A stretch of 64,000 bases of DNA, from contig JAKCFJ010000001.1 of assembly GCA_025041175.1 (NCBI GenBank), forward strand, positions 868,001 to 932,000, read 5' to 3'. Below are positions 62,108 through 64,000 of the stretch, one piece after another (within the stretch, counting starts at the first letter, position 1; each line of letters begins with the position of its first letter). A program made the position numbers and the translations under genes. The DNA is from Halobacteriales archaeon YIM A00010 (GTDB taxonomy: Archaea; Halobacteriota; Halobacteria; Halobacteriales; Haloarculaceae). The notes under the pieces are model-generated. The model was not told where the DNA came from and did no database searches. It saw only the letters and a program-made list of their open reading frames with translations.

Positions 62108-62797
62108 GTCGGATCTACCAAGAGGAGATACTTCAACTCCACCTTTTTTCCGCTCGGGTGAGCAAGTTCACCCTCGCCTGGCGAGTCGGTCGCTCACTGC
62201 GTTCGCGCTACGACTCGCTGGTTCCCACTCGCTGCGCTCGCGGGAACGCAAAAAACGTGGGCGAAAAAAGACCGCTCGCTTGCGCTCGCGGTGAGTGTAC
62301 TCACGGTACCGCCACCGCTACCGCCTCCGCCACCGCTCGCCCCGCTACCGCATATGGAGCAAAGCCGCTGTCAGAGAGTGACCCGCTCGCAGGACAGCAT
62401 GCTCACGCCGACTACACCGCACAGCTTCGACGGATTGACTGGCCGCTGTTCCACGTGGAAAAATTCACTCACCACAGCGCTGCGGTGCGGGTCCGTTCGG
62501 ATTGCTTCGACACTGGTAGCAGTGACGTGATCGCTAGACAGAAATCCACCGTTACCGGTACAATCCTGGCCAGCAACGCCCTATTCCGGCGGATCGCTGG
62601 CACCCTCTGAGCAATCGCTGGTAGAGCGAGTTGTTAGTACGATACAACATTATCCGTTCCATCAGTACCTTTATGTGTGATGGGGAAAGGAACGATAGAT
62701 GAGGACGCCAGTGCGCCCGAAGGCGTGCGCGTTCGTGTTGAACGCGCCGGGTGTTAGGGCACCCGACGCTGGGGTTCTCATACCGCAAGCAGAACCC
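62108..62797. other. Left flank of the hairpin-rich element, with left inverted-repeat arm
   Basis: Bases 62150-62340 are low-complexity GC-rich sequence with short palindromes, including GGTGAgcaagtTCACC. The arm 62207-62318 recurs in inverted, interrupted form at 63571-64000. After it, a frame ending at 62610 has coding-like composition (RRIDWPLFHVEKFTHHSAAV) but no start, and may be a gene remnant. A TATA-like CTTTATG near 62672 and a CGGGTG-ttaggg-CACCCG hairpin near 62750 precede the small genes. Confidence 0.5.
62207..62318 (+). repeat. Left arm of the long inverted repeat
   Basis: Shared blocks, in order, are GCTACGACTCGCT, GGTTCCCACTCG, CGCTCGCGGGAACGCAAAAAA and AAAAAAGaCCGCTCGCT, then CGGTGAGtGTACTC. 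The same blocks are found in the same order on the minus strand from 64000 down to 63571, where hairpins are inserted between them. The left arm lacks those hairpins. Confidence 0.7.
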
Positions 62798-62944
62798 ATG
62801 ACAGGGAACGCATCAGAGACATGTAACGATGTCGCATCGTGCCAAAATGATGAACAGCGCACGCGCTGCCCAGTGTGCGGCCGACCGGTTCGTACGCGCC
62901 TCGACCACCGGATGGGGTGTCCGTTGGGGCGGTGGTGGCGGTGA
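62798..62944 (+). CDS. 48-residue Cys-rich small protein
   Basis: A short gene between the inverted repeats: MTGNASETCND start, CPVCGRPVRTRLDH in the middle and GCPLGRWWR at the end. The CPxCG motif is characteristic of haloarchaeal zinc-finger microproteins. It overlaps the next frame by 4 bases (GTGA), implying coupling. Whether it is expressed or is part of a mobile unit is unknown. Confidence 0.45.
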   Translation: MTGNASETCNDVASCQNDEQRTRCPVCGRPVRTRLDHRMGCPLGRWWR

Positions 62945-63549
62945 CGCTGCCGTTGTTCCAGTTCCGGAATCGGCGCGGCGAGGTCGTGAACCTCTCGGCC
63001 GTCGAGGATCGGGACGTGATTACGAAGGCGGAGCTGTACCACAGCATCGACGTTGGCGAGGGTCTATGGTGTCGCCGAGCGAAGCTCGGCTGCTAACCAG
63101 AAATCTTCGATTTCTGGTGATGTCGGCCCTGCCAGTCCACGGGTTGCGCGCACGCCACGCAGATCGAGCAGATACTGGCGACGGCGGGGCTTGGCACGCC
63201 CCGAACGGGCGGCTACGACGAGCTGCCGGGCATCGCGCGGTTCACGCGCTACTGCGCCACCGGTGAGATGATCGTGGCCTGTTGATTCGATAACGGCGCG
63301 CGGGTGCGCTTTCACGAGCAGCGCGATGGCACGGTGGTCCAGTCTGTGTTCGTCTCCGAGGACGCACGCGAACCGGCCGAGATGACCGAGAAACCCGACG
63401 CCGACACGGCCCCGTCGTGTCTGGTCGCAACGCTGGCGAGCTACTGCCAGTACCGCCAGCGCGGCGATCTCGATGGTTTGCGTCAGAGCTATCCTGGCCT
63501 GGCGCGCGTCGTCGGAGAGGCTGACGCTGCACCCACCACCGACGACTGA
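62941..63549 (+). pseudogene. Interrupted 203-codon gene with a hairpin insertion
   Basis: One reading frame is open from a GTG at 62941 (VTLPLFQFRNRRGEVVNLSA...) to a TGA at 63547-63549, except for three stops. Two of them (63094-63096, 63118-63120) lie within a hairpin pair at 63074-63118, and one more is at 63283-63285. The downstream parts (QIEQILATAGLGTPRTGG; RVRFHEQRDGTVVQSVF) stay in the same frame. This suggests a gene of about 185 codons interrupted by a roughly 51-bp unit, later gaining a nonsense mutation. The last 81 codons could be read alone from a GTG at 63304. I recognise no family. Confidence 0.5.
63070..63125 (+). repeat. Hairpin pair unit inside the broken gene
   Basis: Two perfect hairpins, GCCGAGC-GAA-GCTCGGC (63074-63090) and ACCAGAAATC-TTC-GATTTCTGGT (63096-63118). 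The fixed boxes TGTCGCC, GGCTGCTAACCAGAA and TTCTGGTGATGTCG flank and link them. The same boxes, inverted, lie at 63927-63988 with different stem sequences. Confidence 0.75.
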
Positions 63550-63570
63550 CGAACCACAGCAGCGAGCGGA

Positions 63571-64000
63571 GCGGTGGCGGGGCGGTCGCGGTACGCGAGT
63601 ACGCTCACCGCGAGCGGAGCGAGCGGCCTTTTTTGGTCCTCTCAGATGGACTCCGTCCATCTGGGAGCCTGCAAGAGCTTCGCTCTTGCAATGCAGATTT
63701 TTTGCGTTCCCGCGAGCGAAGTCGTTCGAAACGGCGAAGCCGTTTCGTGATCTCGCAAGAGCGACGCTCTTGCGGACCTCGCGGAGGTCCCCTCCGCTCA
63801 GTGACGAAAATCTTCGATTTTCGGACCACGAGTGGGAACCAGAGAGGCGCGACGCGACTCAAGCAGCGAGACGCAAAGCGTCTCGGGCAGTCGGGCTTCG
63901 CCCGACGACAGCCGGCCGTAGGCCGGCGACATCACCAGAACGCTTCGCGTTCTGGTTAGCAGCCAGAAGCCGAAGGCTTCTGGCGACAGCGAGTCGTAGC
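63571..64000 (-). repeat. Right arm of the inverted repeat carrying a hairpin array
   Basis: Eleven perfect inverted repeats with 3-base loops lie at 63643-63663, 63671-63689, 63727-63747, 63754-63774, 63774-63790, 63805-63823, 63867-63885, 63890-63906, 63911-63927, 63935-63955 and 63962-63984. Stems are 7-10 bp and all differ in sequence. Loops are TTC or GAA in six cases, otherwise TCC, GAC, GCG, AAA or GTA. Blocks homologous to the left arm are interspersed. Long open frames crossing this region are by-products of the palindromes. The element continues beyond the window. Confidence 0.75.

Follow-up and report, generated by a model that had tools for sequence, protein, structure and literature searches.

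The hairpin array at the right end of the window (the whole 64-kb stretch of DNA analysed here, C1:868001-932000 of the genome) is very probably a nest of small mobile elements, selfish coding palindromes of haloarchaea that insert 3' of C/GAC. Each element comprises two perfect mini-hairpins with stems of 7-10 bp and 3-nt loops, for the most part C-GNA-G when read on one of the strands; the hairpins are connected by a short invariant linker, and the element ends in GAC. Insertion takes place just 3' of C and preferably of GAC. GAC is an aspartate codon and abundant in acidic proteomes. As this target is carried by Asp codons and by the right end of the element itself, and as C ends the stretch of linker in which nesting is seen, elements stack in tandem, nest within one another and land in genes. 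A length of 45 bp corresponds to 15 codons, stop-free after GAC, so that insertion after an Asp codon would add a hydrophilic 15-residue peptide without closing the reading frame; selection presumably purges insertions that arrive in other phases. The elements are likely to be selfish rather than useful to their hosts.

Eleven perfect hairpins, each with a 3-nt loop and a stem of 7-10 bp, lie at window positions 63643-63984 when the two that overlap at 63774 and 63781 are scored as one. For the window as a whole, an order-3 Markov model predicts 8.25 such hairpins in 64 kb, or approximately 0.04 per 342 bases, and the observed density in this 342-base array is approximately 250 times that expectation. 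This confirms the first-pass annotation of the region, which had counted the same eleven hairpins and assigned eight of the eleven loops to GNA/TNC. The array runs past the end of the window, to at least C1:932052.

Related structures are dispersed through the genome. When the array region was compared by BLAST with the genome that contains it (G000, 5.97 Mb), 59 partial matches were obtained on several contigs, in a mosaic where hairpin pairs recur in varied order, orientation and combination. The linkers are constant (tagca/tgcta, rgca/tgcy, gacatc/gatgtc and gacag/ctgtc), and the tips of the hairpins that they join vary with full compensation. The earlier view that shape is conserved and stem sequence varies is supported by this pattern; the accompanying claim that the stems are mutually unrelated is not, given that outer stems and linkers are constant by family and only tips and loops vary. 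In the 2.05 Mb of chromosome C1 from which chain statistics were drawn, 72 chains with a total of 188 hairpins were found, against a single chain in the shuffled chromosome, a comparison that the annotation had proposed. A C-G closing pair is present in 178 of the 188 chain hairpins, GNA/TNC loops account for 76% of chain hairpins versus 24% of isolated ones, and GNA and TNC are nearly equally frequent among C-closed chain hairpins (66 and 69 respectively). The C(GNA)G cores noticed in the array are hence strongly enriched in chains generally. C(GNA)G minihairpins are described as exceptionally stable in DNA in PMC6479982 (citing Yoshizawa et al. 1997), and the elements are therefore likely to be folded as DNA at some stage. 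Double hairpins are also inserted in the tails of IS605-type tnpB elements, in the part expected to encode the TnpB guide RNA (L066, L067, L068, L070, L072 and L077), and adjoin or edge Y1 tnpA loci (L010 and L011).

The array itself resolves into six two-hairpin modules, all on the plus strand, within an intergenic, terminator-like host element (E0). Its eleven perfect hairpins represent five intact pairs and one half of a sixth, and there are eleven rather than twelve because the hairpin at 63844-63860 has decayed. The left part of E0 (63595-63642; gtgagtacgctcaccgcgagcg...cggcCTTTTTTggtcctct) is a terminator-like imperfect palindrome that follows a member of a gene family of approximately 30 copies, and the same sequence lies downstream of most paralogues; E0 copies without filling are found at C1:2495142 and C1:2618870. 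Module C (63643-63690; CAGATGGAC tcc GTCCATCTG ggagcc TGCAAGAGC ttc GCTCTTGCA) recurs as an identical pair at C1:2495186 and C1:2618913 and inverted at C1:682444. The two hairpins of module D, at 63717-63747 (cgaagtcgtt CGAAACGGC gaa GCCGTTTCG) and 63802-63830 (tga CGAAAATC ttc GATTTTCG gaccacg), are separated by module N (63752-63801; CGCAAGAGC gac GCTCTTGCG / GCGGAGG tcc CCTCCGC), which splits the D linker as tgat-tga; at C1:2025775 and C1:2326329, module D is uninterrupted and its linker reads tgatga. An outer A-type 45-mer is represented by two halves, at 63841-63864 (the decayed hairpin GAGGCGC gac GCGACTC with linker AAGC) and 63910-63930 (AGCCGGCC gta GGCCGGCGAC), that when rejoined give exactly the 45 bp of the A consensus. 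Its linker is occupied by an inner A-type 45-mer (63865-63909; AGCGAGACGCaaaGCGTCTCGGGCAGTCGGGCttcGCCCGACGAC), which matches covariance model R1 with 63.4 bits. A B-type element of 57 bp follows (63931-63987; ATC ACCAGAACGC ttc GCGTTCTGGT TAGCA GCCAGAAGCC gaa GGCTTCTGGC GAC), after which E0 resumes (63988-64000; cgagtcgtagc...) and extends past the window edge as far as GGGTGGCC gaa GGCCACCC gagcggaaaaaaaggtgg. Intact copies of E0 and D elsewhere in the genome serve, on sequence comparison, as empty sites for the array. What the first-pass annotation had taken for a single array acting locally (as a landing site, in replication or recombination, or as structured RNA) is thus better described as a nest of independently inserted, dispersed elements of 45-57 bp; its other points, namely a haloarchaeal structure of conserved shape with C(GNA)G cores and relatives in other genomes, were sustained. 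Sequence inspection revealed a second E0 in the opposite orientation, without module pairs, at 62140-62312 on the minus strand. The gene family upstream of the array is chromosomal: besides window positions 62680-63560, it is found at about 30 other sites on C1, with 75-85% identity and a conserved upstream region of its own; its members encode a small Cys-rich ORF (RCPVCGRPVRTRLDHRMGC) and an ORF of approximately 185 aa without a Pfam match, and are mostly followed by the E0 terminator-like element.

The main module has a fixed length of 45 bp. The 37 copies first aligned are gap-free and their stem pairs covary, in a set biased by the requirement for perfect stems at selection. A less biased set of 67 distinct elements from named genomes, retrieved with a search pattern that left six pairs free or half-free, shows Watson-Crick matches at the free pairs in 63-67 of 67 elements, compared with an expected 28-36 for all but one of the six pairs. 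Of 85 copies, 84 have C as the last base of the left flank, and in 40 the flank reads GAC; the 3' end of the element is GAC, which formed part of the search pattern. This right-end GAC is seen together with left flanks TTC, ATC, AAC or GAC, and GAT/GAT pairs also occur; left and right flanks share 1-4 bases, and there may be a very short target duplication. Eleven of the 85 named copies, in addition to the copy in the window, have another 45-mer as host and lie in its linker. When preceded by a GAC codon, the element reads, without a stop, as (S/R)ExxxxSSxRTQSGD. Tandem growth, nesting in linkers and the reading frame therefore follow from the C/GAC target and the element's own GAC end.

Mobility is evident from filled and empty sites, both paralogous and orthologous. 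The window copy of the gene family is broken by a 51-bp B-type element (63071-63121, minus strand), which lies antisense and introduces an in-frame TAA. Among 12 aligned paralogues this element is filled in four and empty in eight, and TGTCG flanks it on both sides. One of its hairpin loops is GAA in three paralogues and TTC in one (L053 versus L054), hence hairpin tips can flip. In the same genome, elements lie in frame within ten conserved genes: those for PEP carboxylase, PEP synthase, V-ATPase subunit I, an enolase-superfamily protein, a P-type ATPase, a methyltransferase, an amine-oxidase-like protein, CbiZ, GH3 and radical SAM proteins. The PEP carboxylase gene accommodates a seven-hairpin array with its reading frame intact (948 aa), and six congeners lack the array. 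Inserts in host genes measure 15 codons or multiples thereof, and the extra stretch in PEP synthase is 17 residues long. All of these genes except CbiZ were compared with congeners, and the inserts are absent at the same sites save for that in the radical SAM gene, which two congeners share and which lies in another frame than the other verified gene inserts. Its stems are broken by point changes in these congeners, and old copies thus decay. Such filled and empty sites mark the two-hairpin modules, at the level of sequence, as short mobile elements. At the 45-mer site of V-ATPase subunit I, two congeners (G004 and G005; L195 and L196) carry other low-complexity residues, for example GVPRDTSSEEQNAASGRTSSG, which are possibly older, decayed elements. 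The matches of two further congener genomes (G002 and G003) have identical coordinates and equal scores, and the two seem to share a single chromosome assembly.

Copies within genes, including essential ones, are likewise found in other genomes. Of the frame-0 ORFs from named genomes, all 20 tested match Pfam, often across the element; a Pfam domain over the element was found in none of the ten long ORFs tested in other frames. This frame bias, tested on ORFs only, may be due in part to how common GAC codons are. Frame-0 hosts include beta-CASP nuclease, PolX, mercuric reductase, aconitase, Hsp70, adenylosuccinate synthetase (PurA), Lhr helicase, ribosomal protein L2 (uL2) and M20 peptidase, and the named hosts carry an extra 15-residue SExxxxSGSRTQSGD-like peptide. 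Halomicrobium katesii uL2 aligns end to end with the crystal-structure chain from Haloarcula marismortui (1s72_A) and has exactly 15 extra residues, segqspsgsrtqsgd (SEGQSPSGSRTQSGD). In Natrinema zhouii merA, RefSeq annotates one CDS across the element. The second loop (H2) in long frame-0 ORFs is most frequently GCA (CAG, Gln); GTA, which places a TAG stop in frame, occurs in eight copies without a long frame-0 ORF, where it is among the commonest, and is absent from the loops listed for long frame-0 ORFs.

Elements of this type are distributed throughout the order. R1 matches 309 of 392 genomes and 79 of 95 genera, with a copy number per genome that is in many cases a lower bound. A scan of related genomes had also been suggested with the first description of the array, and similar structures are indeed present in them; in a phylum-wide sample, none of approximately 164 genomes outside the order matched. 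Among the named matches listed, all are Halobacteria save one metagenome-assembled genome labelled just Euryarchaeota. The nearest plasmid matches to the array are in Halocatena and Natronococcus, so that the host is probably a near relative of Halocatena. Phages and viral contigs gave no matches. No description of such elements was found in open-licence papers on haloarchaea, though an earlier one is possible.

By analogy with REPINs and IS200/IS605 elements, the mobilizing enzyme would recognize a folded single strand. No autonomous partner of the elements was found. A resident Y1 transposase (TnpA/RAYT) was considered as the driver and is not supported, there being no positive relation to copy number in genus g20; among the 32 genomes sampled from this genus, eight without Y1 have at least 8-17 copies each, whereas a single copy is present in each of two genomes that have 2 and 6 Y1 genes. 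A fuller reading can be offered tentatively, as somewhat short of an even chance: that these are codon-phased selfish DNAs of Halobacteriales, whose GAC target, 45-bp length and stop-free frame would allow them to invade essential genes unbroken, and which would be moved as folded single-stranded DNA by an enzyme other than Y1/RAYT.

It is unlikely that the elements are terminal-only IS200/IS605 remnants or PATEs on which TnpA acts in trans, with one hairpin from the left and the other from the right end of an IS605-type transposon. Double hairpins do adjoin the 3' end of tnpB in several copies, four Y1 TnpA genes are present in this genome, and Haloquadratum has 52-bp terminal-only PATEs lacking target duplication (PMC3119063). 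However, double hairpins are present in some IS605 tails and absent from others, IS605 itself terminates on the right in a longer hairpin of another kind, and Y1-free genomes are rich in the elements. Comparison of IS605 copies shows the double hairpins, first taken for right ends, to be insertions, such that IS605 elements are targets, not source. Slightly less probable is that the coding copies are useful protein modules, disordered hydrophilic linkers under selection, rather than selfish DNA. In this genome, several genes contain members of a coding-adapted subfamily, SEEQRSSxNRTQSGD, and the PolX, beta-CASP nuclease and DUF302 sites carry inserts in several genera; against this, close orthologues lack the inserts, the host proteins are unrelated, and the composition of the peptide is dictated by the DNA palindrome.

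It is improbable that the array serves locally as a structured RNA or a protein-binding site, for instance as terminator, mRNA stabilizer or landing site. E0 has T-runs and comes after a gene, and folding is far better than in shuffled sequences both for RNA (63600-64000; z -8.6) and for the DNA single strand (63841-63988; z -9.7), but modules occur in both orientations in genic and intergenic DNA, vary in number among paralogous sites and decay when old. No Rfam covariance model matches the array, the sole hit being sub-threshold and outside it. It is equally hard to credit that the hairpins spread without transposition, by replication slippage, palindrome template switching and gene conversion. 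Perfect compensation and the GAA/TTC loop flips are as this process predicts, and it may polish or flip the tips; yet it leaves unexplained a defined unit of 45 or 51 bp with constant ends at unrelated sites beside C/GAC.

By analogy, the family may be regarded as an archaeal variant of coding palindromic elements, probably working like Rickettsia palindromic elements (RPEs; reviewed in PMC10969869) and intragenic REPs. Two of the RPEs, RPE-4 and RPE-6, are CGTC-tagged REPs (Di Nocera et al. 2013, PMC3733652). RPEs and CGTC-REPs are likewise short, high-copy palindromes found in frame in many unrelated or housekeeping genes, where they add a short peptide; they also form intergenic arrays, and CGTC elements are without a known transposase. 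CGTC-REPs are tagged by an unpaired CGTC (or TGTC/CCTC) at one end of the stem; one orientation of the haloarchaeal elements begins with NGTC before the stem, with N being various. In-frame intragenic copies are common to both. Nevertheless, CGTC-REPs have loops of 4-5 nt, stems of 8-9 bp with A-T in the first two pairs and a CCA tail, whereas the haloarchaeal elements have 3-nt loops, 7-10 bp stems with G-C or mixed first pairs and a TGC/TGCC tail; on loop length, stem pattern and tail, they fall outside the CGTC-REP superfamily. They further differ from RPEs in being archaeal, with two different tandem mini-hairpins, a constant linker, a fixed length of 45 bp, insertion after GAC and nesting in linkers. 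GTAG-tagged REPs and REPINs, associated with RAYT, similarly consist of paired hairpins and are dispersed and non-autonomous, with ssDNA recognition plausible in both cases. Unlike these, the haloarchaeal units are of fixed length and frame-adapted to genes; their consensus contains no GTAG, they have no linked Y1/RAYT gene, and many Y1-free genomes carry them.

The SMRs and PATEs of Haloquadratum walsbyi, as presented in the sections of PMC3119063 drawn on here, are also haloarchaeal, small and transposase-free, with no clear target duplication, and SMRs target IS605 and PATEs much as the double hairpins enter IS605-type and other elements. In the same sections, however, SMRs measure approximately 80-110 bp and have inverted repeats at their termini, IS605 ends are a feature of PATEs, and in-frame coding inserts are not described. 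The hairpins of the present elements are not IS605 ends, as the inserts lie inside IS605 tails. Nor do they resemble classical MITEs, which have the terminal inverted repeats of a DDE transposon and a defined target duplication: their own ends (AGM...GAC) are not inverted repeats, and no constant duplication is seen. Mitochondrial double-hairpin elements of sponges (PMC2800124), fungi and algae are likewise tandem hairpins that invade genic and intergenic DNA. In sponges, the stems are conserved and the loops vary (PMC2800124), in contrast to the covarying haloarchaeal stems; the mitochondrial elements are not frame-adapted and belong to another genome with other sequences.

Most coding palindromic elements known so far come from Rickettsia and certain bacteria rich in REPs; the archaeal family is independent and order-wide. 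The origin of CGTC-type elements, which have no linked transposase, is an open question that the archaeal family makes testable in culturable haloarchaea. Many lineage-specific 15-residue insertions in haloarchaeal proteins would be explained as former mobile DNA. In DNA polymerase X, the inserts of several genera occupy almost the same loop, at two positions that differ slightly (L325, L294, L266, L236 and L244), a pattern that suggests repeated insertion into one tolerant loop.
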